Of a stretch of 59,768 bases of DNA, positions 1,810 to 26,034 are shown in pieces; position 1 is the first letter of the stretch, and each line of letters opens with the position of its first letter. This stretch comes from Phycisphaerae bacterium. GTDB lineage: Bacteria > Planctomycetota > Phycisphaerae > UBA1845 > Fen-1342. A program made the translations under genes and the position numbers. The notes beneath the pieces were generated by a model that saw only the letters and a program-made list of their open reading frames with translations, was not told the DNA's origin and searched no databases. The DNA lies in the NCBI GenBank assembly GCA_028279405.1, contig JANQNU010000089.1:1-59768 (forward strand), in the 5' to 3' direction.

Positions 1810-4800
1810 TCAGCCCCCGACCGGCAGACCCGCCGTGCGCTTGTCGGGGTGGTGGAAGTACAGGAACCGCTGCAACGCCGACGTGCTATGGCAGGTCGTG
1901 CACGCGTTGGGCACGCCGAACGGCCGCAGATGAAGCTGCTGCGCCGGCGCATTCTTCACGTCTTCCCGAGCCGCTCGTTCACCGTGTACATCGACGCGGC
2001 CGTGCGGCAGGTGACATGTGCGGCACGCGATCTGGCCGACGTCGCTGACCATGCCACTCGAACTGTACAACGGTAACGCCGACGGCACGGACCCGACCGC
2101 TGGGAACGCCATCGGAACCAGCGGGTGGGTTGCGACGCGTGATCGCTCCGTGAATGTCGTCGACGAATGACAGGAGGAACACGTCGGATCCCAGACCTGA
2201 TCCGCATCGGCGGGCGCCGACGCGTGCATCGTCCGCGGGAAGAGCCGTTCGGCGAGTTGCGCTTGCGGTGCGTGCATCCGATGACACGGTGCGCACGCTT
2301 CCGCCTCATGACCGGCGGCGGCGAGGCGCGCCGCCGCGTGTCCGGTCCATTCGATGGCGCGTTGCTCCCGGTGGCACGTCAGACACAGCTCCTGGGAGCG
2401 CCCACGCGGCGCCCGTAGCAGGTGAGCCGCGGCGGTCGACCCGCCGTGCGGATCGTGGCACGTACGACACTGAACCCGCGGCGCGCCCGCATCGTCCCTG
2501 CCCAACGGCAGGTTCCCCACGAACGCGGCGAGGTCGCCTGTTTGGGGATGCGCCGCCGACTGTTTGCCGGTGGCGTGCCAGCGTGCGTCGGCGTGACACG
2601 CGAGGCAGACTTCGTCTTCCCCGGTTCGCGCGTCGGTCGGGCGCACCCGCCAACGCCCGGCATGCGTGTCGGCGTGCGGTGCATGGCACTGCATGCAACG
2701 ACTCTCCGCTCCACAGGAAAACCCCGACCACGCGCCGGGAAACTGCAGCGCGTCGTGAGCGCCGCCGACGAGGCCCAGATGATCGACGTGACACGTGCTG
2801 CACACCTCATCGATGGGCCCGCGGAGAAAGTGCGCCGTCGCGGTCTCGTGCGGATTGTGGCAGTCCGTGCAGCTCTCGCCCGGATGAGAAAACCGTCCGG
2901 CGGTCGCCGACGCGGCGCACCCTTCGGGCTGGTGACACGTCGCGCACTGCCCGGACGCATCGAACTGCGTCGCCAGCGGCTCGCGGGCGACTCGATGAAA
3001 CAGATGGCACGCGCTGCACGGGCCACCCTCCGCGGACGTGAAGCCGTGTCGGTTGCGCTCGTGCGGAAAGTTCGTCCGCAGATCGTGAGCACTGCCGACC
3101 AGCATCCCGTACTCACGGTGGCATTGCAGACACATCTCACTGTTACGTAACGGCCTCTCGAGCAGAAACCGCTCGGCAGCGCCATGCATCCGATGGCACG
3201 AGAGACACAGCAACGTCTCATCCGGCGCGACGCGCGTCCCCAGGGCACGGATCGCGTCCAGTTGCGCGTCCGAGAGCCGTACGTCGAACGGATGAACGCC
3301 ATCGTGAGCCCGCGAAACGTTCGGCTGCATCCCGTCGTGACAGCGCAAACACTGCGCGTTGCTGTCCGGATCAAACGCCAACAGATGGTCCGCTGCGCCG
3401 TGCGGCGTATGACACTCCGCGCACGTCAACGCGCCCGAGTGACCCGGTTGAAGTGCGTCGTGGAACTCGACAGCGACCGGGCCGACCGGATGGTGTCCGA
3501 ACGTCGCGGCATCAGGCCCCATGTCGCTGTGGCAGCGATGACATAGGTCCGCCGTCGGAAACCGCGCCATCACCGCTTTCTCCATGCTGAACGCCTGGGG
3601 ATCGCGATGCGCCGTGTGACAGGTGCGACAGGCCATTCGCCCATCCTGCAACGGCAACTCCTCCGGGACGATCATGCCCGTCGGTGGCGCCACCCCGGTC
3701 CGGTGACCATGCTCAAGCCAGACACGTCGACGGGCGTCGTCGATCGCGCCATCGTGACACGCGAGACACATCGGCTCGGTCGACGCGAACGGCGCTGCGC
3801 TGTCACTGCGCGGCTGTGGGACCAGCCACTCGGTACGCGGCACCCGCTCGAAATCCGGGTGCCAGTCGAGATGACAAAGGGTACAACCGCGAGATTGCTG
3901 CCCGCTACCGATCGACGGACGGATGGGGGCGGTGAGCGGCGGTGCTGCTGACCGTTCGATCGCGTACTCAACGACGCGATCTCGACGCATCTCGACCACC
4001 AGCAGGTTGCCGTCGCGATTGAACGCAAGCCCGATCGGCGATTCCAGCCGAACCGGTGCCCCGTCCGCGTCGCGCAGCACGTCAATGAACGACCCGCGCG
4101 GCGCGAACGCCTGGATCACCCCAGTGACACTGTCGCTGACCCAGACAGTCCCACGCGGTCCGTACGCCACGCCCTTCGGATAGTAGAAGGTTCCCTTTCG
4201 AATCCCATAGCTGCCGAGTGCACCGGCCGGTCGTCCGTCGCCGGTCAAGGTCTGGACGCGCCCGTTGAGGACATCCGTGACCAGCACGTCTGTGCTGTCG
4301 GTCGCCGCAATCAGGAACGGGTACTCGAACTGCCCGAGCGAAGCGCCGCGCGCTCCGACGCGCGAGAACACGCGTTGTTGCAGGTCGAGTTGCAACAGAC
4401 GGTGATGATCGTTGTCGACGATCCAGAGCTGCTCGCCATCCGGCGACAAAGCGATGTCGGTGATGTCCACGGCAGTATCGTCGCCAAGCGCAATCGGGAT
4501 CGTCTCGAGAATACGACCGTCGCGAGCCGCAACCACGACGCGCTGGTTTCCCGTGTCGGCGATGAACAATCGATCGGACCGGTCCACGAACACGCCAATG
4601 CATGCCCGTAGCGGAACACCGGCCGCGCGGGCGACCACGGTCGCGGGTTCCGCGTCGACGGCGAAAATCAGGACGCGATCATGAACGCCGTCCGCGACCG
4701 CAACGGCGCCGTCGTTGAACGTCGCGACGTCGGTCGGCAGCCGCATGGGTGGATCGGACGCGACATACTCGCGCACGAACGTTCCCTGTAGTGGCGGCGC

Positions 4801-4926
4801 CGCACTGCTCACTACAACCAACCACAAGAGAACGCCGCCACGACAAATCACAGCCCCGATACCGCCCCTACCGGTTCCCGTTGTAACAGGCACGCTGCCG
4901 CTGGCTTGACGATTCGAATTGATCAT
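1810..4926 (-). CDS. NHL-propeller / 20-haem cytochrome c fusion
   Basis: The ATG at 4926 overlaps the upstream stop as ATGA, giving 1038 residues; the frame continues further upstream without support. After a hydrophobic export segment (about residues 29-43), residues about 50-325 form an NHL-like beta-propeller with repeated blocks such as VDRSDRLFIADTGNQRV, LWIVDNDHHRLLQLD and PKGVAYGPRGTVWVSDS. From residue 347 to about 1009 there are 20 CXXCH haem sites, many in decahaem/doubled-CXXCH spacing (CRTCH, CAECHTPHG, CTDCHNPHE). The haem chain is long enough to act as an electron wire, and the propeller could dock a partner or substrate. It is last in a three-gene operon with a quinone-type cytochrome b protein, so a periplasmic or extracellular electron carrier is likely. 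The substrate is unknown. Confidence 0.88.
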   Translation of the reverse strand: MINSNRQASGSVPVTTGTGRGGIGAVICRGGVLLWLVVVSSAAPPLQGTFVREYVASDPPMRLPTDVATFNDGAVAVADGVHDRVLIFAVDAEPATVVARAAGVPLRACIGVFVDRSDRLFIADTGNQRVVVAARDGRILETIPIALGDDTAVDITDIALSPDGEQLWIVDNDHHRLLQLDLQQRVFSRVGARGASLGQFEYPFLIAATDSTDVLVTDVLNGRVQTLTGDGRPAGALGSYGIRKGTFYYPKGVAYGPRGTVWVSDSVTGVIQAFAPRGSFIDVLRDADGAPVRLESPIGLAFNRDGNLLVVEMRRDRVVEYAIERSAAPPLTAPIRPSIGSGQQSRGCTLCHLDWHPDFERVPRTEWLVPQPRSDSAAPFASTEPMCLACHDGAIDDARRRVWLEHGHRTGVAPPTGMIVPEELPLQDGRMACRTCHTAHRDPQAFSMEKAVMARFPTADLCHRCHSDMGPDAATFGHHPVGPVAVEFHDALQPGHSGALTCAECHTPHGAADHLLAFDPDSNAQCLRCHDGMQPNVSRAHDGVHPFDVRLSDAQLDAIRALGTRVAPDETLLCLSCHRMHGAAERFLLERPLRNSEMCLQCHREYGMLVGSAHDLRTNFPHERNRHGFTSAEGGPCSACHLFHRVAREPLATQFDASGQCATCHQPEGCAASATAGRFSHPGESCTDCHNPHETATAHFLRGPIDEVCSTCHVDHLGLVGGAHDALQFPGAWSGFSCGAESRCMQCHAPHADTHAGRWRVRPTDARTGEDEVCLACHADARWHATGKQSAAHPQTGDLAAFVGNLPLGRDDAGAPRVQCRTCHDPHGGSTAAAHLLRAPRGRSQELCLTCHREQRAIEWTGHAAARLAAAGHEAEACAPCHRMHAPQAQLAERLFPRTMHASAPADADQVWDPTCSSCHSSTTFTERSRVATHPLVPMAFPAVGSVPSALPLYSSSGMVSDVGQIACRTCHLPHGRVDVHGERAAREDVKNAPAQQLHLRPFGVPNACTTCHSTSALQRFLYFHHPDKRTAGLPVGG

Positions 4927-6020
4927 TGCGGCGCCGGCTGTCCGAGTTGGGGAAACACGAACGGCCGACCGTCGCGAATGTGCTCGATCATTTGAAACAA
5001 CAGCGGCCCCTGCAACTCCGAAATCCGCGATCGTGAATACCCAAGTGCCTCCCAATCGATGCGCCGCGCGTCCGGCGCGTGACAGGCCGCGCACGCTAAC
5101 GGCGTTTCGCGCCGTCGCGTGTGAATCGCGGCGATCCGCTCCTCGCGCTCCGCGGCATCAAGATCGTCCACGCGAGACAGATATGCGGCCACGGCCTCTT
5201 CAGATGTCGGATGGCCGAGCAGCGCACGACCGTCGGTGCTTCGAACCGCGAGCTTGGTGCCGTAGGTTCCTCGAAACGCCCGCTGGACTCGCGCGCGAAG
5301 CGTACGCAGAAGCGTCAGCGGATCATCCGCGCGCGAAGCCGCGGCACGAAAGTGGCCGACCGCACGCGCCAGGCCCGGATCAGCGCCGCGCTCGGCTGCG
5401 GTTTCCAGCAGATCAGCAAGCTGGTCGCGCGCAGCGCGATCGAGCGGCTCGCGCTGCGCCAAGGCCGCCTCGATCTGCGCGTAGGCGATCAACAGCGCCG
5501 GCGGCTCGTCGGCGGCGCCGGTTTGCAGGTCGTACCACGTGAGGGGCATCGCGGCCGTGTCATCGGGAGGACCCGCTTCGAAATGGCAGACGCCGCAATG
5601 AAGCGCGGTTGCATGCATGTTCAGGAACGCCCGCGTCTCCTTGAACCGATCGTGCGGCGCAGGGCTGTGGCAGCCACTGCGCGTACAATCGTTGAACGCG
5701 TCCGACTGGAACCAGGTGTCGATCTGGTGGTAGTGCGCAAGCGGGGCGCGCGGCCGTTCGACAGCGGCGAGGCCCGCCCAGTCCTCGCGGCGCTCGAAGA
5801 GCGCTCGCTTATCGAGCTTGCGCGGCACGTCGCGGACCTGCGAAGGTGTCTCTGCCGGTATCAGCAGGCTGCCAACCAGATACGCGATCGCGCTATAGCT
5901 GGCCCACAGGATCACCGCAATCAGCACGAACGCGTAGACCCGCTGGATCACGCCCGACAGCACGCGGTACACCGCACGTGTGCGATTTGAGGACGAACGT
6001 AAGGCTCGCGGGTCAGCCAT
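4923..6020 (-). CDS. Membrane-anchored 3-haem cytochrome c family protein
   Basis: I chose the ATG at 6020, which overlaps the upstream stop by 8 bp; an earlier ATG at 6068 would overlap further. The 365-residue product has one N-terminal membrane segment (about 27-52) and then a soluble, mostly helical domain. Haem sites are an atypical CX4CH (CTRSGCH, about 112), CGVCH (about 142) and CAACH (about 314). The roughly 170 residues between the second and third sites contain no haem. It probably shuttles electrons between the cytochrome b protein encoded upstream and the 20-haem protein encoded downstream, staying tethered to the inner membrane with its haems in the periplasm. No specific family name was recognised. 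Confidence 0.8.
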   Translation of the reverse strand: MADPRALRSSSNRTRAVYRVLSGVIQRVYAFVLIAVILWASYSAIAYLVGSLLIPAETPSQVRDVPRKLDKRALFERREDWAGLAAVERPRAPLAHYHQIDTWFQSDAFNDCTRSGCHSPAPHDRFKETRAFLNMHATALHCGVCHFEAGPPDDTAAMPLTWYDLQTGAADEPPALLIAYAQIEAALAQREPLDRAARDQLADLLETAAERGADPGLARAVGHFRAAASRADDPLTLLRTLRARVQRAFRGTYGTKLAVRSTDGRALLGHPTSEEAVAAYLSRVDDLDAAEREERIAAIHTRRRETPLACAACHAPDARRIDWEALGYSRSRISELQGPLLFQMIEHIRDGRPFVFPQLGQPAPQ

Positions 6021-7866
6021 GGTTCGGCTCCGATGAAATCCCCAGTTCGGTCGCGACCTCCTCGACAAACAGCCCGTTCTCCTCTGCCAGCTTGGCCTTG
6101 GGGGTTGTGCCGCTGATGGTGGCCATCGACAACGGAAAGACGGCCGGCGAGAACACGGCGTTGTAAATGTGCAGGATGCCGACGTGGATCAGCGCCAGGA
6201 ACGCCTCGTACGTATGGATGATCGTCGCAAGCGTGAAGGCCCGGCCCCCGAAGAGGTGCGAGGCAAACTGCTCGCCCCAGAGCATCAACCCGGTCAAACC
6301 CAGCAGCACCGTACCCCAGATGACCCCGAAGTACTCGAATTTTTCGGTAATGGTGAAGCGGCCGAACGTCGGCCGCGGGACGCGCATGCCCAGCAGGTGC
6401 TTGACGAGTTGCAAGGCGCGGCGCGCATCCGAGGGCGTGATCACCATCGGCAGCGCGAAGATCGACTGTACCAAGCCGACGGGCTTTCCGTCCGGCCCCG
6501 GTCCCCACGCGCGCCGCACGGCGGCAACCGTCTCACGCAACAGGTGCCAGGCTACGCCAACGGTCAACGCGATGCCCGCCCAATGGTGTAAAAGCCGCAC
6601 GACGCGAATCCCGCCAAAGGCGCTGACCGTCCATGCAGCCCAAAGCTGGTCTGCGAACTTGAGCGGGAACCCGGTCAGCACCAGCAATGTGAACAGCCCG
6701 GCAAGCAGCCAATGCTCGATTCGTTGCGAGACGGTGAAGCGAACGAGCCGGCGCGGCCCGAGCGGATGCGCCCGGACCCGATCGACCAGTCGCTCGTGGT
6801 CCGCATCGCCGTGCCGACCGCGCGTCATCACGCGCCACAACTCGAGCACGACGATCACCATCGACGGCCCGAACGAAACCACCGTCAACAGGATGAACGC
6901 GACGGCCAGCGCGAACTCGAGGGTCCCACGCGTCACGGAAAGATCGAGGTGCGACGCTGACGTCGCCAGGTTGATGCCCGCGCCGGGGTGACACTCGGTG
7001 CTACGACAGGAGTCAGCGACGTTGTCGGGATGGACCGAAGACCGCGGATCGTCACTGGCCAGCATCCGATGGACGTTTTCGCCTGTGCGGACGTGACAGG
7101 ACAGGCAGTCGGCGGTGTCTTCGTCGCCTAACAGCGCCGCCTTCCCGTGAAAACTGCGTAAGTAGCTCGTGACGGTATTCGGCAGATTTGACGCATGCAT
7201 GGACCGCGCGTCACTGTGGCAAGTGGCGCAGTTCTGCGCGATCTCCAACGTTGAGCGGGCCGGTGCGAGACGCGCCGCAACGTGCCGAAAATAGTATTGG
7301 ACATCGGTCGGCAGCTGCGCGGAATGGCAGACGTCACAGCGATCGAAGGTGCGCTCGGCCAAAGCGCCGCCACGGAACTGCAACAACTCGAATGGGTCAC
7401 GGAAGACCGGTTCGTCGTGGCAGAGCAGGCAGGTCGATTGGTCGGCACCGATGAGCGGGTTCTCGCTATGCTCCAGGTCGCGGAGGATTTCGTGCGTGTG
7501 CACGCTCTGCTCGAGCAGCGTGGCGACGTTCTCGTGACTGAAGCGTCGCTCCAGCCCCGAAAGGTTGGTCAGGTGGCAGGTGCGAGCGCAATCGACCGGC
7601 GTAACGTCTTTATGGGGAATGACTTGCACTTCGTGGCCGACGTGGCAGTCGGTACACGAGAGCCGGGCATGCGCCCCGAGCGCATCGTGATAATATGACG
7701 GGTTGATCGAGTAGAGATGCACCCGGTCAGCCTGTGCATCGTAACGGCTCAGCCCCGGGAAACGGTGGCAGTAGAGACAATCATCCCGGTCGTCAGCAAC
7801 GGTCGGAAGCACGAGCGTCAGCCCGAGCAGACAAGTAACGATGGCGGATCGCAGCGACCGTTCCAT
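6013..7866 (-). CDS. Fused octahaem cytochrome c / membrane cytochrome b
   Basis: This 617-residue protein is first in the operon. A signal peptide (1-24) precedes a periplasmic domain with eight haem motifs: CLYCH, CTDCH, CX3CH (CARTCH), CLLCH, CDVCH, CATCH, CLSCH and CX4CH (CRSTECH). A membrane segment follows at about 310-340. The C-terminal 240 residues resemble the cytochrome b561/formate dehydrogenase gamma family, with RIEHWLLAGLFTLLVLTG, LLHHWAGIALTVGVAWHLL and IIHTYEAFLALIHVGILH supplying likely haem b histidines. The fusion would connect the menaquinone pool to periplasmic haems in one polypeptide. The direction of electron flow and the donor cannot be told from sequence. Confidence 0.87.
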   Translation of the reverse strand: MERSLRSAIVTCLLGLTLVLPTVADDRDDCLYCHRFPGLSRYDAQADRVHLYSINPSYYHDALGAHARLSCTDCHVGHEVQVIPHKDVTPVDCARTCHLTNLSGLERRFSHENVATLLEQSVHTHEILRDLEHSENPLIGADQSTCLLCHDEPVFRDPFELLQFRGGALAERTFDRCDVCHSAQLPTDVQYYFRHVAARLAPARSTLEIAQNCATCHSDARSMHASNLPNTVTSYLRSFHGKAALLGDEDTADCLSCHVRTGENVHRMLASDDPRSSVHPDNVADSCRSTECHPGAGINLATSASHLDLSVTRGTLEFALAVAFILLTVVSFGPSMVIVVLELWRVMTRGRHGDADHERLVDRVRAHPLGPRRLVRFTVSQRIEHWLLAGLFTLLVLTGFPLKFADQLWAAWTVSAFGGIRVVRLLHHWAGIALTVGVAWHLLRETVAAVRRAWGPGPDGKPVGLVQSIFALPMVITPSDARRALQLVKHLLGMRVPRPTFGRFTITEKFEYFGVIWGTVLLGLTGLMLWGEQFASHLFGGRAFTLATIIHTYEAFLALIHVGILHIYNAVFSPAVFPLSMATISGTTPKAKLAEENGLFVEEVATELGISSEPNHG

Positions 7867-7971
7867 GATGGCGACTCAATCTCCGGGTGTGCGTACCGAT
7901 CATCTGCGCCAATGCACGCTCCGTACCGCGCGACAATCGTTTGATCAAGTCACAAAAGCTGTCCGTGAATC

Positions 7972-8000
7972 TTGCGACATGGCATGTGGAATGATAGATT
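7972..8000 (+). promoter_or_regulatory. Possible sigma-70 promoter of the 9-haem lipoprotein gene
   Basis: TTGCGA (7972-7977) and TAGATT (7995-8000) are separated by 17 bp, each matching four of six consensus positions. They lie about 110 bp before the GTG start in the divergent intergenic space. Weak evidence. Confidence 0.25.
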
Positions 8001-8115
8001 GTTGGCGGAAGGTTCGGGCTGGTATCTGATCTGGTGTCACTTCATTAGTTCGGCGTACTCGACGCTCAGGCCGAGGCAGTTGAGTCGCACCTAACCAGGC
8101 TATGGAGGGCATCCC

Positions 8116-9573
8116 GTGTCCACCGCGCACCGTTTCGAACGCTCCACCCTCGCCGCAGCGATTGCGGTACCACTGGCTTTGTCTCTGCTGTTCACGACCG
8201 GCTGTCCCGGTCTGTTCCCGCTACCACCCGCCAACGGGAACGGTAACGATAATGGGAACGTGAACGACAACGACAACGCGAACGACAACCAGAACGCGAA
8301 CGATAACGGCACCGGCAACGACGGCGTGACCGGGCAGTTCGTCGGCTCGGAACGTTGCTCGCTGTGCCATGCCAACACACACGCGGACTGGTCGCAGACG
8401 CTGCACGCGCGTGCCCTCGAGTCGCTTGAAGCGATCGGGCAGGAGCAGAACGCGGTTTGCCTGCCGTGCCATACCGTCGGCTACGACGAGCCCGGCGGTT
8501 TCGTCGATCGGGCCACGACGAACGTCCTCGCAGGCGTCGGCTGCGAAAGCTGCCACGGCCCGTCCCGTCAGCATGCAGAGAACGTCAACGACGAGTCGCT
8601 GTACCCGCCCAAGGATATCAGTTCCGCGGTTTGCGGGACCTGCCACACCGGTTCCCGTCATCCGCAATTCGAAGATTGGGAGAGCTCCGGGCACGCGCTG
8701 GTGACGGAAGTCGTGGCCTCAGGCATCACCGGCGGGTCGCGTTTGAACAGTTGCGGGCAGTGCCACTCGGGCGACTTCTTCTTCCGAGCGATTCTGAACA
8801 CCGAGACTGTCGCGGACGATCTGCTGGAGGGTGTCGAGCGTGAGGATCAGCACGCGGTCACCTGTGCGATCTGCCACGATCCGCACGCCCAGACCGGCAA
8901 TGCACCGACGCCGGAGGATGGCCGCGACTTCCAGTTGCGGTATCCCGAGGTTGCCAGCCCGACGCCGGCAAACGACATCGCGGCGGCGACGAACCCCGCG
9001 CGGTTCAATCTCTGCGGGCAGTGCCACCACTCGCGCGGCCGAACGTGGCAGACGACCAGCCGGGCGCCGCACCACAGTGTTCAGGGCAACATGTACGTTG
9101 GCGAGATGCCGCTCCCCGAGGACGGCGAGGTGCTGGTCAACAGCCGGGTCTCGATCCACTCGTTCGCGACGGAGCAATGCGCGACGTGCCATATGTACCG
9201 CCAGGACTTCATGGACGAACTCGCTCCGGCTATCTCGGGACACACCTTCGAGGTGAACGAGAACAGCTGTGCGACTGCCGGTTGCCACCCGTCGATGGCG
9301 CAGGCGGCGGCCGCCGAGACCACGCTGACGACCGAAGTACAGGCCCGACTGGATGACATCGCGACGCGGCTCGGCGATCCGGCGACGTGGGAGTATATCG
9401 CCGGCGGCGGACCGGATTCCGATGGGCAGGCGATGCTCGACGACCGGATCAAGCAGGTCCGCTTCCTGTATCACTACATCCTCTCGGACGCGAGCCTGGG
9501 CATTCACAACCCGGCCTACACGCGCGACATCCTCGAGAAGGCCGAGGACCTGCTCGACGACCTGGGGCTCTAG
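8116..9573 (+). CDS. Nonahaem cytochrome c lipoprotein
   Basis: The GTG start at 8116 is preceded by GGAGGG with 7-nt spacing. A signal peptide ends in a lipobox-like TTGC (about residue 30). About 30 residues of Asn/Asp/Gly repeats (NDNGNVNDND...) form a flexible stalk. The body carries nine haem motifs: CSLCH, CLPCH, CESCH, CGTCH, CGQCH, CAICH, CGQCH, CATCH and a terminal CX4CH (CATAGCH). Spacing and surrounding blocks (WSQTLHARALESL, CESCHGPSRQH) resemble the cytochrome c554 group of multihaem proteins. A helical tail of about 90 residues lacks haems. It is divergent from the cytochrome b operon and is a good candidate for its membrane-attached redox partner. Confidence 0.88.
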   Translation: MSTAHRFERSTLAAAIAVPLALSLLFTTGCPGLFPLPPANGNGNDNGNVNDNDNANDNQNANDNGTGNDGVTGQFVGSERCSLCHANTHADWSQTLHARALESLEAIGQEQNAVCLPCHTVGYDEPGGFVDRATTNVLAGVGCESCHGPSRQHAENVNDESLYPPKDISSAVCGTCHTGSRHPQFEDWESSGHALVTEVVASGITGGSRLNSCGQCHSGDFFFRAILNTETVADDLLEGVEREDQHAVTCAICHDPHAQTGNAPTPEDGRDFQLRYPEVASPTPANDIAAATNPARFNLCGQCHHSRGRTWQTTSRAPHHSVQGNMYVGEMPLPEDGEVLVNSRVSIHSFATEQCATCHMYRQDFMDELAPAISGHTFEVNENSCATAGCHPSMAQAAAAETTLTTEVQARLDDIATRLGDPATWEYIAGGGPDSDGQAMLDDRIKQVRFLYHYILSDASLGIHNPAYTRDILEKAEDLLDDLGL

Positions 9574-18801: not shown

Positions 18802-19413
18802 CTACTTGATACTCATCAGGTCAACGTCCTTGCCGGCAACCCGGCGCGTGACGACGCCCCGAATCGTGTCGGCTGCGAGCGAGTTGACCACGATGGAACT
18901 GTTGGCGGTGAACTCGCCGGTCGTGTCGTTGTATAGCCAGCCCGCAGTGGGTGCGGCCTGAAAGGTCAAGGCCGTGTTACCGGTGACGACATGTACGCCG
19001 GTCAGGCCGCGTTTGCGCCCGAAACGCAGCGGCGGAATTCCCTTCCGGAGATAGGGTCCGTACCGATAGTTCCCGGTCGGCGCGGACGACGCGCGTCCGG
19101 CAATGTCGGTGTATTGCAGCATCTGGCGGAGAAAGGCGGCTTCGGTATGCGCGGCGTTTCCCCCGTCGCTCACGGCGCCGGGATAGACGCCGGCGTGCTC
19201 GATCGCGTACATCTCGATCATCTTCTGGACGTTAAAGAGGTCGGCTTGCGTCGCGGCGGCAGCGGAACGTGAGGCGCCCTGGCTCAGACGCGGCGCGGCG
19301 ATCAGCGCAACGATCCCGATCAGAACGACCACGATCAACAGCTCGACGAGGGTGAACGCTCCCCGCTGTCCCCCGGTGCGTCGTTCGAGCGTGGTTCCGG
19401 TCTGCATCGTCAT
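18802..19413 (-). CDS. GspG/PilA-like pilin, copy 2
   Basis: A 203-residue product with leader MTMQTGTTLERRTGGQRGA and mature start FTLVELLIVVVLIGIVALIAAPRL, with Ala at -1 and Glu at +5. The helix continues into SAAAATQADLFNVQKMIEMYAIEHAGVYPG, the GspG hallmark alpha-1 and YP turn. The C-terminal beta domain (YGPYLRKGIPPLRFG, GWLYNDTTGEFTANS) is shared with the neighbouring copy but carries an extra 30-residue tail. Such proteins are major pseudopilins or type IVa-like pilins; two paralogues in the train suggest a heteropolymer or two alternative filaments. Confidence 0.85.
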   Translation of the reverse strand: MTMQTGTTLERRTGGQRGAFTLVELLIVVVLIGIVALIAAPRLSQGASRSAAAATQADLFNVQKMIEMYAIEHAGVYPGAVSDGGNAAHTEAAFLRQMLQYTDIAGRASSAPTGNYRYGPYLRKGIPPLRFGRKRGLTGVHVVTGNTALTFQAAPTAGWLYNDTTGEFTANSSIVVNSLAADTIRGVVTRRVAGKDVDLMSIK

Positions 19414-19500
19414 GCTGTTGCAACATCGAAGGCCCGTTTCGGTGCGCCCTCGGCTTCATTCGAACTCGCGTCAACACCACTCCCCCTGCCGGACGCAAAC

Positions 19501-19528
19501 GGCCCGGCAGTCGCAGGACTCCCGGGCC
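19501..19528 (-). terminator. Hairpin between the two GspG-like genes
   Basis: A 7-bp GGCCCGG/CCGGGCC stem with a 14-nt loop lies in the 188-bp gap after the first pilin. The following T-run on the minus strand is short (GTTTGC), so it may be a partial terminator or an RNA-stabilising hairpin that lets the first pilin be expressed above the downstream genes. Nothing else was seen in the gap. Confidence 0.35.
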
Positions 19529-19601
19529 CGAAGCATTCGTGATCAGATGTCGCAGCCCCGCTCTGGAACACGATCGTCAGGACGACCTCTGCCCCAAGGG
19601 A

Positions 19602-20126
19602 TCAGTAGGCGTCGTAGGACGTTCCTTCGGGGTCGGTCCCGTTGGAGTTGGCGACGATCTCGCCCGTCTGATAGTTGTAGACCCAGCCGGACGTTGTCGC
19701 GGCAGCCGTGTACGCAGGCGCGGTAGCGCCCGACACCATCTCGACGCCGGTCTCTCCGAGCCGCGGGCTGACCGGGCACGGCGGGATGCCGGTGCGGAGA
19801 TACGGACCGTAGATGTGCGTCGCGGTCTTGGTTGCCGAGACGGCGCCCTGATCGTTGCTGTATTGCGTCAACTGCGCGATCAACGCAGCTTCTGTTCCAG
19901 CGGCATTGGTGCCGTCGCCGTTCTCGCCGGGATACTCGCCGTGCTCATAGTAGTAGAGTTCGACGGCGTTTCGCAGCACGGACAGGTTGCCGCGCAAACT
20001 GGAATCGCCCGCACCGGCCGCACCACGGCTGAAACGTGGGATCGCGATAGCCGCGAGAATTCCAATGATCACGACGACAACGATCAACTCAACCAGACTG
20101 AATGCGTGGCGACGGCAGCGTGTCAT
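19602..20126 (-). CDS. GspG/PilA-like pilin, copy 1
   Basis: A 174-residue product starting at 20126 after GGAG. Short leader MTRCRRHA, then FSLVELIVVVVIIGILAAIAIPRF, a classical pilin helix with Glu5 and Ala at -1. The sequence NLSVLRNAVELYYYEHGEYPGENGDG and the C-terminal YGPYLRTGIPPCPVSPRLG and GWVYNYQTGEIVANS blocks match bacterial GspG/type IV pilins common in planctomycetes. It is the best candidate for the major filament subunit: shortest leader, first in the pilin block and separated from the assembly genes by its own leader region. Confidence 0.87.
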   Translation of the reverse strand: MTRCRRHAFSLVELIVVVVIIGILAAIAIPRFSRGAAGAGDSSLRGNLSVLRNAVELYYYEHGEYPGENGDGTNAAGTEAALIAQLTQYSNDQGAVSATKTATHIYGPYLRTGIPPCPVSPRLGETGVEMVSGATAPAYTAAATTSGWVYNYQTGEIVANSNGTDPEGTSYDAY

Positions 20127-20229
20127 GTCAACGACTCCATAGATTTCGACACTGAGAACCAGAGCTGTTCACTGGAGTATCGAAAAAAAAACACAGGGGG
20201 TTTGCTTGCGCTCCGGCAGATTTTGCGGA
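20127..20229 (-). promoter_or_regulatory. Leader region before the pilin block, with a T9 tract
   Basis: This 103-bp gap separates the PilP-like gene from the first pilin. Read on the minus strand it contains nine consecutive T (20191-20183), then a weak CCAG/CTGG hairpin and the GGAG site of the pilin. The T-run follows GC-rich sequence without a strong stem. It could end some transcripts of the assembly genes or act as a separate control region for the abundant pilin. No clear -35/-10 pair was found. Confidence 0.3.
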
Positions 20230-20736
20230 TTATTTGCGGGCCCCGCGAACCGGTACCGGTAACACGCGCCGGCGGCCGTGCTCGTCTTCCAGGATTACCC
20301 GTTTGCTGTCAATTGAGACAATATGGTGACCATGGATCGTGTCGCCGACGCGCGCCATATGGCCGTCGAGAATCGCCGCCGGGCGCGGTCCGAGTATGAT
20401 CCCCTGGACTCGGACCTCCTGTAGCAGCACTTCCGGCGAGTCCTTCGTCTTTGGTTGACCGGTAACCGAGTCGCCCTTCCCGAAACCGACGCGCTCCCAA
20501 GAGAAGATGTCGGGCACAGCGGTCTGCAAGACCGCGCGCTGGATGGGTTGAAAGCGATCCGGATCGAGCTTGACCAGCTTGAGGTCGGCATCCTCCGGCG
20601 AGGCAGCGCTCAGCACCGCCGCCGCCGCGTCCGCGACCTTGGGCGGTGGCAAGACCAGCCGGTCCACGGCCAGCGCGAGAACCGCGATCAGGATAATGCC
20701 GACGCCGGCGCGCTCACGTCGCGACAAGCGCTTCAT
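20230..20736 (-). CDS. PilP/GspC-like pilus assembly protein
   Basis: The ATG at 20736 overlaps the upstream stop as ATGA; an upstream frame extension is ignored. The 168-residue product has a basic start (MKRLSRRER), one membrane helix (about 11-28) and a periplasmic segment. The C-terminal 60 residues (VQGIILGPRPAAILDGHMARVGDTIHG...VILED) form the small beta HR-type domain shared by PilP and GspC, which contacts the secretin. The position directly after pilM-pilN-pilO supports a PilP role. No secretin gene follows, so its outer-membrane partner must be elsewhere. Confidence 0.75.
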   Translation of the reverse strand: MKRLSRRERAGVGIILIAVLALAVDRLVLPPPKVADAAAAVLSAASPEDADLKLVKLDPDRFQPIQRAVLQTAVPDIFSWERVGFGKGDSVTGQPKTKDSPEVLLQEVRVQGIILGPRPAAILDGHMARVGDTIHGHHIVSIDSKRVILEDEHGRRRVLPVPVRGARK

Positions 20737-21296
20737 CCGCTGCTCCTCTCCGGCGTTGGCGCATCGGCGAGCTGCTTCATCCGAATGGTCCAATTGCACT
20801 GGCACTGGTGCTCGCCCGGCTTGGCAGGCCCATTGATCGAGAGCGCGCGAATCTCCAGGTACGGCGAGGCCGCTTCCAGTCGCGAGATGGCGCGCGTGCA
20901 GTCGGCGAACGGGCCCGCCGTCTCGACGCGCAGATCCAGCCCATCTTCGGCCGCCCCGGCACCGGGCGCGATCGACAGGATCGTGAGGCCCTCGAGTGCA
21001 CTGAAACGCGACACGAGTGAGGTCAAGTCACTGTCGGAGAGCGGTTGGTCCTCGCGCTGCGATTTGAGCTTGCCCTCGACGGCGCGAATCCGCTGCTCGA
21101 GGTCGCGTAATACGAGCGTAAGCTGCTCATGGCTGTTCGTGATCTCGGTCACCTGGGCCCGCAGTTCCGGAATCTCGCGATGCCGGGTGGCGATCGGATT
21201 GAAGATCAACAGGTATGACGACACAACGATGCCGCACATCACGACGGCGCCGCCGAGGTCGATGAGATAACGGATGCGCGCCCGCCCGAGCGTCAT
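20733..21296 (-). CDS. pilO: PilO-like inner-membrane alignment protein
   Basis: A 187-residue bitopic protein: cytoplasmic start, membrane helix (about 14-32, GGAVVMCGIVVSSYLLIF), then a coiled-coil (EIPELRAQVTEITNSHEQLTLVLRDLEQRIRAVEGKL) and a ferredoxin-like C-terminal domain (ALEGLTILSIAPG, SPYLEIRALSING). This is the PilO architecture; PilO pairs with PilN and links the cytoplasmic PilM to PilP. It overlaps pilN and the PilP-like gene by 4 bp each (ATGA), so translation is coupled along the block. Confidence 0.85.
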   Translation of the reverse strand: MTLGRARIRYLIDLGGAVVMCGIVVSSYLLIFNPIATRHREIPELRAQVTEITNSHEQLTLVLRDLEQRIRAVEGKLKSQREDQPLSDSDLTSLVSRFSALEGLTILSIAPGAGAAEDGLDLRVETAGPFADCTRAISRLEAASPYLEIRALSINGPAKPGEHQCQCNWTIRMKQLADAPTPERSSG

Positions 21297-21928
21297 CGGA
21301 GCTCCCTCCGGCAGGAGACGGCGTACTCGAGCATATCGGTCTCGCCGTTACGCTGGCGCTCCGAGCGCACCAGCCGCACAGGGTCGTACACCTGCAACTC
21401 GCGGAGTCGCCGCGAGAACTCCGAGACGGAATCGTAACGCCGCGCCAAGCCCTCGATGCGCAACTCGAATCGCTCGACCGGTCGGGGCGGACGAGTCGGG
21501 CCGGCGTCCGCAGCGTCCGGCGCAACCGGCGCCACCTGCGGAACCGGTAGTGCCGAGAGCGTCAGCTTGTTCACCGTCATGTCCTCGGGCAATGCCCGAG
21601 CCAGTTCCGCAATCCGCTGCGACCAGCTCTCGCGCGCTTGCAGAGACAACAGGCGGTCCTGCGACGCAAGCAGCATTTCGGACTTGGCCGCAAGTCGTGC
21701 AAGCTGCTGTTGTGTTTCGACATAGGCCGTGCTCTCGTCTGAAACGAGACGCTGCAGGGTGCGCTGATCCTCGCCGATCTGGTAGACCAGTGCCCACGAA
21801 ACCAACACGACCGCCAGCAACAGGAGATTCCCGGAGATCCACTGCCGGATGCGCAAGGTACGCGAGGTCTGACGTTGCACGCGTGCCGGCAGCAGATTGA
21901 CCTGCGGGACGTCTTCGAGCCAGATCAT
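21293..21928 (-). CDS. pilN: PilN-like inner-membrane protein
   Basis: The start at 21928 (MIWLEDVPQVNLLPAR) overlaps the pilM stop by ATGA; the open frame further upstream is a shadow of pilM. The VNLLP motif at residues 10-14 is the conserved PilN peptide that inserts into PilM. A membrane helix (about 33-53) and a coiled-coil (DESTAYVETQQQLARLAAK) follow, then a ferredoxin-like domain that includes a Pro/Ala-rich insertion (QVAPVAPDAADAGPTRPP). 211 residues. Together with PilM, PilO and PilP it forms the alignment subcomplex of type IVa pili. Confidence 0.88.
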   Translation of the reverse strand: MIWLEDVPQVNLLPARVQRQTSRTLRIRQWISGNLLLLAVVLVSWALVYQIGEDQRTLQRLVSDESTAYVETQQQLARLAAKSEMLLASQDRLLSLQARESWSQRIAELARALPEDMTVNKLTLSALPVPQVAPVAPDAADAGPTRPPRPVERFELRIEGLARRYDSVSEFSRRLRELQVYDPVRLVRSERQRNGETDMLEYAVSCRRELR

Positions 21929-23001
21929 ACGCCGATCCCCCCCAACGCGAGCCCGACGCAGACCGCACTGAGCGTCTGCGGGACAGGCGTTACCGCCCCG
22001 GGCGCCACCTCGATGCACTCGAGCGCATTGAACGCTTCGACCTTCACGCCCAGCGCCTCGCTCAACCAATCGACGATCGGTGTGAGGCGGGCACCGCCGC
22101 CGCAAACGTAGATCGTGGTCGGCACGGCCTCCGGATATCCTTCCATCGCGTACTGAAAGGCGCGCTGAACCTCGGCGGCCATTCCCTGGACGGACTGCTG
22201 CACGATGCCGGCACCCAGCCCGAGCAGTTCGTCTTCCGTACTCTGCTCCCAGTCAGTCGCGATTCGCCGTTTCAGTGCTTCGGCACTACGGTAGTCGACA
22301 TCGAGCGATCGACTGATCTCGCTGGTGAACGTGCCACCGCTGACTGCCAGCGAGCGGACATACACGCAGTGTGCGCCGAGCACGACGGTCAGCAATGACG
22401 ACGTGCATCCGACGTTGAGAATCCCCCAGAGCGCGTTGTTGCGATCAGGGGTTGTCGCCCGCGGCAGGCCCATCCGCAACGCCGCCCGCAGCAGCGTGAG
22501 CGGCAGCACGTCGATTCGACGAAGCGTCAACCCACAGGCGGCGAAGTACGACTGCCAATTCTCGATCGTGTCGCGCTTGGCGGAGATCGTCATCACATTG
22601 TTGCCGGTTCGGTTCCCAGGCGGGAGCGGCCACCAGTCCACTTCCAGCATCTCCGGGTCACAGTCGAGGTTGCGCGCTGCGTCGTAGCGCAGCAGGCTTT
22701 GCCATTCGTCCTGTTTCGCCGGATCGTAGTCCACCGGAATGTTCGCCAGATGAAAGGCGACGTCCGGCGGTCGCAGCGCCAGGTCGGCCACTCGACCGCG
22801 AAAGGCCGTCTGCGTCACAAGTCGCGCGGCACGCGAGGCCGATCCCGGCAGCGCCGCATGCGGCGCCTCGTGCAACGGATCCTCGACCCGCCGGTGTTGA
22901 TACAGACGCACGTTCGACCCGCTGCGCAACAGCTGGCAGAGTGCGAGGCTCGTCGTGCCGGCATCAACGGCGATCGCTGAGTAATCGCGTCCGAACATCA
23001 T
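21925..23001 (-). CDS. pilM: PilM-like actin-fold ATPase
   Basis: A 358-residue cytoplasmic protein of the FtsA/actin superfamily. It starts with the phosphate-1 loop SAIAVDAGTTSLALCQL, has a phosphate-2-like loop GILNVGCTSSLLTVV, and an adenosine-binding segment TIYVCGGGARLTPIVDWL. PilM binds ATP and the N-terminal peptide of PilN, aligning the cytoplasmic ring of the pilus machine. It sits 7 bp after pilC and overlaps pilN. The C-terminal ALGGIGV and overall length are normal for the family. Confidence 0.9.
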   Translation of the reverse strand: MMFGRDYSAIAVDAGTTSLALCQLLRSGSNVRLYQHRRVEDPLHEAPHAALPGSASRAARLVTQTAFRGRVADLALRPPDVAFHLANIPVDYDPAKQDEWQSLLRYDAARNLDCDPEMLEVDWWPLPPGNRTGNNVMTISAKRDTIENWQSYFAACGLTLRRIDVLPLTLLRAALRMGLPRATTPDRNNALWGILNVGCTSSLLTVVLGAHCVYVRSLAVSGGTFTSEISRSLDVDYRSAEALKRRIATDWEQSTEDELLGLGAGIVQQSVQGMAAEVQRAFQYAMEGYPEAVPTTIYVCGGGARLTPIVDWLSEALGVKVEAFNALECIEVAPGAVTPVPQTLSAVCVGLALGGIGV

Positions 23002-23008
23002 CCAGTCC

Positions 23009-24223
23009 TTATGCCGCGGTGGCCAGATCGAACAAGGGCAGAAAGAGCGCCAGGCAGACGGAGCCGATCACGAGCCCCATACCGATCAGGATCATCGGTT
23101 CCAGGGTCTTGGTGACGCTGTGAATGCGGTCATTCGATTCCTCCTCCAGCCAGTTACCGACATACTCCATCGACTCACCCAGGCGGCCGCTTTCTTCGCC
23201 GGTGGAAATGCTGGCAATCACCGGGGCGGGAACGAACGCGTAGCGCCGAAACACGGACGAGATCGAACGTCCGTCCTGGACCGCTATGTCCACCTCATTC
23301 ACCAGCTGGTGGATCACCTCGTTTCGGCTCACGTCTCGCGCTTGACGAATCGTCGCCAGCAACGGTACGCGACTCTTGAGCAGTGCGCCCCACAGCTGCA
23401 GGATGCGCGTGAGCAGGACCGCACTCACCACGGGACCGATTCCGGGCGACCGCAACAACAGTCGGTCGATCGTGCATTTGCCCGCGGGGGTTCGGCTCCA
23501 CGTCACCAGCACAATCGCAAGCCCGATCGGCACCGCGAGCACCACGATCCAGTATTGTCGCAGCGCCATGGTCGTGTCGAGCAACAAGCGCGTCATTGCC
23601 GGCAAGGGCGCGTTCAATACTTCGAACAGGCTTGCAAAGCGCGGCAGGACGAACAGGGCCATCGTGCAAAAGACACTGACCGCAAGCACCAGCAGCATCG
23701 CGGGGTAGGCGACCGCGCCGACGATGCGCTTGCGGAGCCGGATACGGTTCTCGAGCAGCGTCGCGACGCGTTGGAAGGCCGCAGGTAGCTCGCTGGTCGA
23801 CTCGCCGCCGGAGACCATGCTTCGGATGTTCCCGGGGAAGTACTCCGGAAACCGGGCCATCGCCTCGTTCAGCGGCGCACCGCCCTCGACGCGTTCGATC
23901 AGATCACTCAACAGGTTATGCCAGGCGGGACGTCCGGGCTGCTCCAGCACGGCCTGCATCGCCGGTACGAGCGCGGCACCGGCATTGAGCATCATGGTCA
24001 TCTGGCGGGAAAACATGAGCAGCTCGGGGGCTGTCGCGTTGCGAGCCTTGCTGTTGCCGCGTCTGGACATGACAGCCTGCCCCAATTGGGAAGCCGCCGC
24101 GAGTTCCAGAACCAGCAGTCCCTTCCGCGAGAGCTGCCGACGCGCGTCGTCGAGGCTCTCGGTCTCGAGCGTCTCCTGGATCCGACGCCCTTCGCGATCC
24201 ACCGCCGTGTATTGAATCATCAT
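23009..24223 (-). CDS. pilC: PilC/GspF platform protein
   Basis: A 404-residue inner-membrane protein with the duplicated T2SF domain: a first copy around residues 65-190 (LLMFSRQMTMMLNAGAALVPAMQ, GGESTSELPAAFQRVA) and a second around 265-390 (RILQLWGALLKSRVPLLATI, TGEESGRLGESMEYVGNWLEEE). Three membrane helices are at about 170-195, 220-240 and 375-400. PilC transmits motor action from PilB to the growing filament. The start overlaps the pilB stop by 4 bp. Confidence 0.93.
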   Translation of the reverse strand: MMIQYTAVDREGRRIQETLETESLDDARRQLSRKGLLVLELAAASQLGQAVMSRRGNSKARNATAPELLMFSRQMTMMLNAGAALVPAMQAVLEQPGRPAWHNLLSDLIERVEGGAPLNEAMARFPEYFPGNIRSMVSGGESTSELPAAFQRVATLLENRIRLRKRIVGAVAYPAMLLVLAVSVFCTMALFVLPRFASLFEVLNAPLPAMTRLLLDTTMALRQYWIVVLAVPIGLAIVLVTWSRTPAGKCTIDRLLLRSPGIGPVVSAVLLTRILQLWGALLKSRVPLLATIRQARDVSRNEVIHQLVNEVDIAVQDGRSISSVFRRYAFVPAPVIASISTGEESGRLGESMEYVGNWLEEESNDRIHSVTKTLEPMILIGMGLVIGSVCLALFLPLFDLATAA

Positions 24224-26034
24224 GACGGTTCACTCCCTGTCGTCGGCGCTGCGCCCGACGCCTTGGCTCCCGGGGACGGCCCGTCGAGGGCAGGCTCCGA
24301 TTCGCCGGTGCGTTCGGCCCGCACGCGGGCAATGGTCTCGATGTGCGTAACCCGCAAGACTTCTTCCAGCGTCGAAAGTCCACGATCCGCCAGCTGCAAT
24401 CCATGCTCGCGGATCGTCTGCCAACCAGCCTGCTGCAGGTGCGTTCGGATCTGGTCCTCGCCCGCGCCGGCGTGGATCAGGTCGCGGACGTTGTCGTTAA
24501 CGGTCATGATCTCGAAAACTGCCACACGCCCCGAAAAGCCGGTTTGGTGGCATTTCGAGCAGCCCTCCCCCTTCCGATAGATCTGGCGGCTGCGTCCGCT
24601 GCGGTCGGCGTCGGCGAGCGCTGTCGGCGAGGGGTAGTACGATACGAGGCAGTGCGGGCAGTTTTTGCGCACCAGTCGCTGCGCAACCACGCTGTTGAGC
24701 GCCGAAGCAAGCAGATACGGTTCGATTCCCATATCCAGCAGACGTGCCACCGCACCGACCGCAGTGTTGGTGTGCAGCGTGGAGAGCACGACGTGTCCGG
24801 TCAAGGCGGCTTGGATGCCGACGCGCGCTGTCTCGCCGTCACGGATCTCACCGACCAGAATCACATCCGGATCCTGGCGCAGCACGGAGCGCAGCACGCG
24901 CGGGAAGGTGAGTCCGATCCCGTCCGTGATCTGGACCTGGTTAACCAGGTCCAGCTGATACTCGACCGGATCCTCGACCGTTACCACATTGCGCCCGTAC
25001 TCCTTGAGTTGATCGAGCGCGCAATAGAGCGTGGTCGTCTTGCCGCTACCGGTCGGACCGGTCACGAGCACGAGCCCGTGCGGCCGTCGCAACCCGGCGA
25101 GGAACCGCTCGAGCCCGGGCCCCTCGAACCCCAGCTGCTCGAGCGTCACGTTCAACCGTTCGCGGTCGAGAATTCGGATAACGACCTTCTCGCCGAGAAT
25201 CGTCGGCATCGTGGAGACACGCAGGTCGATGTCGCGCCCTTCCGCGACGACGTGCACACGTCCTTCCTGCGGCAGGCGCTTCTCCGAAATATCCATCTTG
25301 CCGATGACCTTGATGCGCGAAACGATCGCCGCGTGCATTCCGCTAGGCGGCTTCATCAGCTGCTGCAGCATCCCGTCGATGCGATATCGGATGCGCGTGC
25401 CGTTGCGATCGGGCTCGACGTGAATGTCACTGGCGTTGTGGCGAATCGCGGTGAGAATCGCGAGGTTGACCAGGTTGACGATCGGGCTGCCGTCGATCAT
25501 CCGGTCGATGTCGCGGCTGTTCTCCTCTTCTTCGGTCTCGCGCTCGACGACCTCCACGTCCGACTCGGTCAGGGAGGTCATGAACGACTCGACGCTCACA
25601 TGCGGCTTGGAATACTTCTCGAGATACTCCAGGATGTTCGGCTCGAGCGCCAACACCGGATTGATCCGGGTGTTGGTCATCTGTGCCAGACGGTCGATCG
25701 TCGGCAACGATTGTGGCTCGGCCATCGCGACGGTCAGCGTGCCTTCGACCAAGAACATCGGCAGCACCTTGAGGCGCTGGGCTTCGTCGTAATCGACCAG
25801 AGCGACGACCTTCGGATCGATCAGGCCGTGGCGTAGCACGCAGCCGTCGACGCCGATCTGGTTGGCGATCGCGTTGACCAGGGTCGGCGCGGTGACGATT
25901 CCCATGCCGACCAGGGTTTCGCCCAGACGCTTGTTGCCGCCCTTCTGGGCGTTGAGCGCGGACTCCAACTCGTCGGCCGTGATCAGGCCTTGCTCGACGA
26001 GCACGGATCCCAGTCGCTGCGTCCGCTTGAGCAC
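24220..26034 (-). CDS. pilB: PilB/GspE assembly ATPase
   Basis: A 604-residue cytoplasmic motor. The N-terminal region (about 1-150) has the MshEN-type layout (RLGSVLVEQGLITADELESAL, LKVLPMFLVEGTLTVAMAEP), a fold that binds cyclic di-GMP in several homologues. The ATPase core has Walker A GPTGSGKTTT, Asp box VEDPVEYQLDLVNQ, Walker B ILVGEIRD and the His box TGHVVLSTLHTN. A CPHC...CSKC zinc motif is typical of extension ATPases. It powers pilus extension or secretion. The nearby HD-GYP and GGDEF genes fit control by cyclic di-GMP through the MshEN region. Confidence 0.95.
   Translation of the reverse strand: MLKRTQRLGSVLVEQGLITADELESALNAQKGGNKRLGETLVGMGIVTAPTLVNAIANQIGVDGCVLRHGLIDPKVVALVDYDEAQRLKVLPMFLVEGTLTVAMAEPQSLPTIDRLAQMTNTRINPVLALEPNILEYLEKYSKPHVSVESFMTSLTESDVEVVERETEEEENSRDIDRMIDGSPIVNLVNLAILTAIRHNASDIHVEPDRNGTRIRYRIDGMLQQLMKPPSGMHAAIVSRIKVIGKMDISEKRLPQEGRVHVVAEGRDIDLRVSTMPTILGEKVVIRILDRERLNVTLEQLGFEGPGLERFLAGLRRPHGLVLVTGPTGSGKTTTLYCALDQLKEYGRNVVTVEDPVEYQLDLVNQVQITDGIGLTFPRVLRSVLRQDPDVILVGEIRDGETARVGIQAALTGHVVLSTLHTNTAVGAVARLLDMGIEPYLLASALNSVVAQRLVRKNCPHCLVSYYPSPTALADADRSGRSRQIYRKGEGCSKCHQTGFSGRVAVFEIMTVNDNVRDLIHAGAGEDQIRTHLQQAGWQTIREHGLQLADRGLSTLEEVLRVTHIETIARVRAERTGESEPALDGPSPGAKASGAAPTTGSEPS

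Follow-up and report, generated by a model that had tools for sequence, protein, structure and literature searches.

A multihaem cytochrome gene cluster of Phycisphaerae that likely encodes the inner half of an extracellular electron-transfer conduit

Introduction

Quinone-linked cytochromes of the CbcL/MtrH/MtoC family occur in 15 phyla, carry 3–23 haems and mostly have six transmembrane helices (four to six are reported, with five in some) (PMC6295460). The nine c-haems of CbcL are all bis-His (PMC9129911). Clusters that pair a beta-barrel with cytochromes are known, including those of Verrucomicrobia (PMC5615132, PMC5566968, PMC10553843), as are NHL or other propeller proteins among surface cytochromes (PMC9769857, PMC8322314). 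OcwA is a nine-haem surface reductase of Thermincola (PMC6703420). Porin-cytochrome genes have been reported in general terms in Planctomycetota metagenome-assembled genomes (MAGs) (PMC10732223), and a genomic survey of the class Phycisphaerae describes no extracellular electron-transfer system (PMC11266412). Here we analyze a multihaem cytochrome locus of a Phycisphaerae bacterium (contig JANQNU010000089.1, assembly GCA_028279405.1). The window is the whole contig (C14; 59,768 bases) and belongs to a 5.6 Mb genome in 92 contigs that is 95.5% complete. Three overlapping genes, called A, B and C, encode multihaem proteins, and a divergent neighbor, gene D, encodes a fourth. The A-B-C unit, with D, is likely to be the inner-membrane and periplasmic half of a Phycisphaerae extracellular electron-transfer conduit that has its own barrel family.

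Results

Haem content and overlaps of genes A, B and C

The original prediction, made from this DNA alone, described three overlapping genes with 8 + 3 + 20 haem motifs, a cytochrome b module and an NHL propeller fused to the longest haem chain. Haem motifs were counted directly in the translations, and composition shuffles provided the background. A has six CX2CH motifs plus CX3CH (93) and CX4CH (287), B has two CX2CH and one CX4CH, and C has twenty CX2CH. These counts agree with the prediction and lie far above the shuffles, which gave mean CX2CH numbers of 0.04 (A), 0.002 (B) and 0.09 (C) with maxima of 2, 1 and 2. Gene starts were corrected from the sequence, and B begins at 6020 (365 residues) and C at 4926 (1038 residues). 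A and B overlap by 8 nucleotides, with ATGGCTGA at the B start (6020) shared with the A stop; B and C overlap by 4 nucleotides, with ATGA at 4926 shared between the C start and the B stop. Stop/start overlaps of this sort are a classic sign of translational coupling.

Conservation was followed in alignments of 37 relatives for A, 40 for B and 16 for C. Genes of the relatives were called by a simple script of our own, and a gene missing near A-B in a relative may just reflect the end of a contig. The eight nearest named relatives of gene A come from MAGs labeled Phycisphaerae, Planctomycetota or planctomycete, with the exception of L037, which is labeled Verrucomicrobiia; that label is possibly wrong, and MAG contigs are possibly mixed.

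Gene A matches the layout of a quinone oxidoreductase

Profile searches of each protein were run, and the cytochrome b module of A was matched by PF01292 (cytochrome b561; 1.7e-10). The match of TIGR01583 (formate dehydrogenase gamma) to the same module was below the cut-off. An AlphaFold2 (AF2) model of A from eight sequences is fair in the cytochrome b part, where blocks have a predicted local distance difference test score (pLDDT) of mostly 70–89 with weaker loops. The c-haem part has a pLDDT of about 30 and yields no haem-haem distances. The top structural match of the cytochrome b model is E. coli FdnI (1kqf_C; Z 11.3, 202/216 residues), followed by the cytochrome b of hydrogenase-1 (Z 8.6). 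His385, His427, His551 and His566 of the membrane domain are unvarying in the 37 homologues and align with the residues of 1KQF that we take to be the b-haem ligands of FdnI.

All eight c-haem motifs of A are invariant or nearly so, and so are eight further His residues of the haem domain. The CX3CH and CX4CH motifs of A and the CX4CH of B are unusual, yet they are kept in the relatives. Each c-haem of A can be bis-His because there are eight invariant candidates for the second His, and A would therefore be an electron-transfer protein and not an enzyme acting at a c-haem. A matches CbcL/MtrH/MtoC-like quinone oxidoreductases in layout, so its kind is already known; the original prediction had not recognized the set as any described complex. 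A plasmid search gave no match to A. An anti-phage role of A or C was rejected, as neither has a PADLOC match.

Gene B is coupled to gene A

None of the curated families scanned (Pfam, TIGR) claims B. Its three haem motifs are invariant or nearly so in the relatives, and His98, His123, His136 and His300 are invariant. Cytochrome_C7 reached E 0.019 against B, below the cut-off; with no match above it, a length of 365 residues and an N-terminal helix, the identification of B as PpcA was rejected. B is present in 47 of the 397 Phycisphaerae genomes of the class sample, and in 17 of the 23 sampled from the window's family. Searches of the phylum sample (294 genomes) detected only short motif-level matches beyond the window's genome, and strong matches to the B family thus appear confined to the class.

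Neighborhoods of Planctomycetota relatives were compared, a check that the original prediction had proposed. B is directly 3' of A in 42/42 loci. Four of them (L098, L111, L118 and L119) carry A and B as a single reading frame of 11 haems that aligns with both proteins almost from end to end. The fusion fits the topology because the AF2 model of A has five transmembrane helices and its chain ends in the cytoplasm, where B starts. Adjacency and fusion are the strongest evidence, and they argue for A and B acting as one unit. Of the 33 eligible loci, 22 have C at most 6 kb downstream of B, 21 of them with C on the same strand. The invariable A-B tandem, the four fusions and the frequent downstream C indicate that A-B(-C) is one system. 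Electrons had been predicted to pass from the quinone pool through a tethered three-haem shuttle to a long wire. The quinone-active cytochrome b, the membrane-anchored three-haem protein and the long exported wire stand, but "shuttle" in the PpcA sense misfits B because B is tethered, and "tethered outlet" is the better term.

Two A-B sets share one contig in L037 (1–6138 and 9875–12905). One set has separate genes for the haem and cytochrome b parts of A, and its C is likewise divided, with an NHL gene and a 19-haem gene. In L031, beside D and A-B, 2977–6294 (minus strand) encodes a seven-helix membrane protein next to a nine-haem protein with predicted helices, possibly a second quinone-linked cytochrome complex.

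Gene C joins an NHL propeller to a 20-haem chain

NHL matches C at 4.9e-17. The 20 motif His residues are kept in the 16 relatives, and 20 further His residues of the haem part are at least 94% conserved. The two ten-haem halves of the chain are similar, with an hhalign probability of 99.6%, a value inflated by the shared CXXCH motifs. In L111, L116, L117, L118, the second cluster of L037 and probably L109, separate adjoining genes encode the NHL part and the haem part. C is therefore a fusion of an NHL gene and a 20–24-haem gene that stand apart in relatives.

Gene D is a nine-haem neighbor

Two parts of the system were absent from the original prediction: the fourth haem gene of the neighborhood and the barrel set described below. 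D has eight CX2CH motifs and one CX4CH, a lipobox-like Cys30, and 9–10 conserved further His residues for its nine haems. In most close relatives D is near A and usually divergent, and it lies at most 4 kb upstream in 19/36 eligible loci. The D profile matches OcwA (1.7e-22) in four stretches, followed by c554 and the NrfA/Onr helices. D is a likely surface or outer-membrane terminal cytochrome. Another lipoprotein of the window (35955–37820, minus strand) has an Asn/Gly/Asp-rich linker after its lipobox like that of D, and it has no Pfam match.

A beta-barrel is encoded with A-B-C in relatives

A colinear run of barrel, NHL, 12-haem, usually 4-/5-haem, NHL, 8-haem, A, B and C genes is found, with small variations, in L110, L113, L115, L116 and L117. 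L111 and L118 have the same order, truncated at or close to an end. In L107 the run goes from the barrel to B and lacks C. From gene order, the large barrel is encoded with multihaem cytochromes in L100, L107, L110, L113 and L115–L118. Counting strand patterns gave 24–30 amphipathic strands for the barrel, with z of 2.5–4.0. The controls were E. coli FhuA, BamA, LptD and an usher, with z of 1.7–3.7, and eight non-barrel E. coli proteins, with z of 0.7 or less. Other proteins of the system scored 1.3 (NHL lipoprotein) and 0.9 (D), and the barrel members of L115 and L116 end in a C-terminal Phe. This strand pattern points to an outer-membrane protein. An MtrB/PioB identity (PF11854) was rejected: there was no match in the window's own genome, nor in the barrels of that genome and L038. 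The barrel cluster of the window's own genome, on contig C13 (Table 1), is probably the outer-membrane half of the system, and the 12-haem protein and the lipoproteins, as predicted from the genes, are candidates for the barrel-inserted and surface cytochromes.

A 12-haem protein of relatives carries a NapC/NrfH-type quinol-dehydrogenase domain and is often encoded between B and C (L031:8096–9877, L035:8164–9927, L036:7756–9588, L083, L091, L110 and L113). PF03264 matches the L036 protein at 7e-14. This NapC/NrfH-like 12-haem protein (E12) was not found in the window's genome by a search that had no positive control.

Feature coordinates and other window genes

The features are collected in Table 1. 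The intergenic stretch that separates the A-B-C unit from the divergent D unit probably holds a predicted promoter region. Elsewhere in the window, 18802–26034 (minus strand) encodes type IV pilus/type II secretion proteins (pilin-like N_methyl proteins, PilM, T2SSF and T2SSE). At the contig start, 2–1500 (plus strand) encodes a tandem pair of similar secreted proteins; the first has a PEP-CTERM-like tail and the second has no Pfam match.

Table 1. Coordinates of the haem genes, their domains and the barrel set; positions are in the window unless contig C13 (L052) is named.
Feature	Position	Strand	Basis or remark
Gene A, 617 residues: signal peptide, periplasmic domain with 8 c-haems, FdnI-like dihaem cytochrome b	6013–7866	-	
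A, eight-haem c domain (residues ~27–310)	6937–7788	-	Motifs and 8 invariant further His
A, cytochrome b domain (residues ~376–575)	6142–6741	-	PF01292, FdnI structural match, ligand His
Gene B, 365 residues: one N-terminal membrane helix; CX4CH, CX2CH, CX2CH	4923–6020	-	
Gene C, 1038 residues: signal peptide, NHL beta-propeller, 20-haem chain	1810–4926	-	
C, NHL beta-propeller (residues ~47–330)	3937–4788	-	
C, 20-haem chain (residues 348–1038)	1813–3885	-	~34.5 residues per haem
Gene D, 485 residues, divergent neighbor: putative nine-haem lipoprotein, OcwA/c554/NrfA-HAO relative	8116–9573	+	
Intergenic stretch of 249 bp, A-B-C unit versus D unit	7867–8115		Coordinates
12-haem protein	C13 (L052) 248096–249850		
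NHL lipoprotein	C13 (L052) 249829–250947		
Barrel	C13 (L052) 250944–253028		
4-haem protein	C13 (L052) 253269–253883		
NHL-8-haem protein	C13 (L052) 253868–255826		
8-haem protein	C13 (L052) 255829–257172		

Discussion

In the proposed mechanism, the cytochrome b of A would exchange electrons with the quinone pool and, on the periplasmic side, with A's own eight bis-His c-haems. B, held to A by its membrane helix, would be a fixed outlet with three more haems. C, as an exported protein, would carry electrons onward across the periplasm, and its propeller would probably dock partners. The C13 set (barrel, 12-haem, 4-haem, NHL and 8-haem proteins) would then move electrons through the outer membrane, completing a chain from the quinone pool through A, B, C and the barrel cytochromes to the surface, with D as the candidate terminal cytochrome. 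Each link may run in either direction. The first two steps, between quinone and the cytochrome b of A and between that module and the eight c-haems, are based on fold and ligand conservation, that between A and B on adjacency and fusion, and those from C onward on operon conservation. Gene content, motifs, conserved ligands, the A-B coupling, the conserved operon and the cytochrome b fold of A are observations, and the localizations, docking and extracellular function are predictions. The A-B-C path, with 31 haems in total, most likely links the inner membrane and the surface. The beta-barrel in the clusters of relatives makes extracellular electron transfer, one of the roles that the original prediction had suggested, the most likely one.

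Several points weigh against this assignment. The barrel set of the window's genome is on a different contig (C13, ~248–257 kb), so the evidence that ties the barrel to A-B-C comes from relatives. Neither Pfam nor PDB gave a match to the barrel, and its AF2 model from two sequences has a pLDDT of 27.7. In favor of the link, the barrel is found in 46/47 class genomes with B (the exception is 72% complete) and in 69/350 without B, but the Fisher p of 2.8e-27 for this co-occurrence is uncorrected for the relatedness of the genomes. About one third of the eligible A-B loci have no C nearby. D. ferrophilus still reduced Fe(III) oxide after deletion of comparable NHL/cytochrome clusters (PMC9769857). 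Cluster content by itself is no proof that electrons leave the cell.

The direction of flow bears on the first alternative, a sub-case of the proposed conduit in which Fe(II), reduced minerals or partner cells deliver electrons inward via the barrel, C and B to A, which would reduce quinone; the acceptor would be oxygen or nitrogen oxides. FdnI, the closest structural relative of the membrane domain of A, reduces quinone, CbcL oxidizes quinol, and FdnI-like cytochromes run either way. A cytochrome c assembly gene and two haem-copper oxidase genes in the genome make both outward and inward flow possible, and the oxidase genes are in keeping with inward flow. Homologues of CbcL/MtrH/MtoC are found in Fe(III) reducers and in Fe(II) oxidizers with no distinguishing sequence mark (PMC6295460). 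On the other side, no Fe(II)-oxidation marker gene turned up in the stretches examined, where no dedicated search was made, and degradation of complex carbon, the lifestyle described for the class (PMC11266412), suits outward flow. We favor outward flow from quinol for this last reason; it is an assumption, and the inward conduit is possible if on balance improbable.

In a second alternative, no electrons leave the cell. A-B(-C) would instead supply electrons, through its link to quinone, to an enzyme that acts on a soluble substrate in the periplasm or at the surface, and D would be a multihaem reductase of the nitrite, hydroxylamine or tetrathionate type. D falls within the c554/NrfA/HAO/OTR superfamily, and most close relatives encode it near A. 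Nitrite and hydroxylamine are also reduced by OcwA (PMC6703420), and Phycisphaerae are reported to have Onr-like octahaem cytochromes, often without nitrite reductases (PMC11266412). However, D lacks a CX2CK catalytic haem, and its at least nine conserved further His residues are enough for full bis-His ligation of nine haems. D is near A-B in only about half of the loci, whereas nearly every genome with B has the barrel, and 31 haems plus propellers exceed the need of a soluble reductase. These points make the soluble-substrate enzyme unlikely. It is very doubtful that C and the NHL-cytochromes form a polymer or surface layer like OmcS/OmcE-type filaments, or an electron store, and not wires between partners: the haem density and two-fold internal similarity of C are suggestive, such density being typical of wires, but C is encoded by one gene in an operon with A-B, and NHL and haem parts are kept as separate genes in relatives.

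Returning to the trans-envelope conduit, we tentatively suggest, with less confidence than in the conduit itself, that it may represent an undescribed Phycisphaerae-specific class. Such a class would have a barrel family of its own, structural couplers in the form of three NHL-propeller/cytochrome pairs, and a quinone module whose three-haem outlet is permanently tethered, giving a continuous protein wire from quinone to surface with no soluble shuttle. Phycisphaerae live in sediments, groundwater and wastewater, and the conserved cluster would extend the electroactive bacteria by one lineage. B and the barrel would serve as marker genes for finding such bacteria. The natural A-B fusions would allow a quinone oxidoreductase and its first outlet to be studied as a single protein.

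Comparison with known systems

The kind of machine is known, and this particular version appears undescribed; a search of the open-licence literature returned no description of this gene set in Planctomycetota. A resembles CbcL/MtrH/MtoC (Geobacter, Rhodoferax, Dechloromonas; PMC6295460, PMC9129911) in layout, with its N-terminal multihaem c domain, C-terminal FdnI/HydC-like dihaem cytochrome b, predicted bis-His c-haems and c-type cytochrome neighbors. It differs in having eight haems, including CX3CH and CX4CH, and five modeled helices instead of the usual six. A is always followed by the tethered three-haem B, to which it is sometimes fused, whereas we found no such partner described for CbcL. 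PpcA-type shuttles are like B in having three haems and a CbcL-like partner, but PpcA is a small soluble c7, whereas B is a membrane-anchored protein of 365 residues with two CX2CH and one CX4CH. D shares with OcwA (PMC6703420, PDB 6i5b) nine haems, a c554-like front and NrfA/HAO-like C-terminal helices; D is a putative planctomycete lipoprotein, in contrast to OcwA, a Gram-positive surface protein. Two haems of OcwA have an open distal site near His-His, and D has ten conserved further His residues. The D. ferrophilus clusters DFE_0448–0451 and DFE_0461–0465 (PMC9769857, PMC8322314) likewise combine propeller/NHL proteins with exported multihaem cytochromes for which a role in extracellular electron transfer has been proposed. 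There, propeller and cytochrome are not fused, reports on the clusters name no CbcL-like protein, and the genome has no apparent porin conduit. The porin-cytochrome conduits (Mtr/Mto/Pio, OmbB-OmaB-OmcB, OetABI, PCC3/PCC4 and the Verrucomicrobia porin-multihaem cytochrome clusters; PMC5566968, PMC10553843, PMC5615132) share the plan of a large barrel gene, multihaem cytochromes of the periplasmic and lipoprotein kinds, and a membrane module linked to quinone. The present barrel falls outside MtrB/PioB by profile. The conduit proposed here differs from all of these in its NHL propellers, which are fused to or paired with cytochromes, and in its A-B module, which is new.

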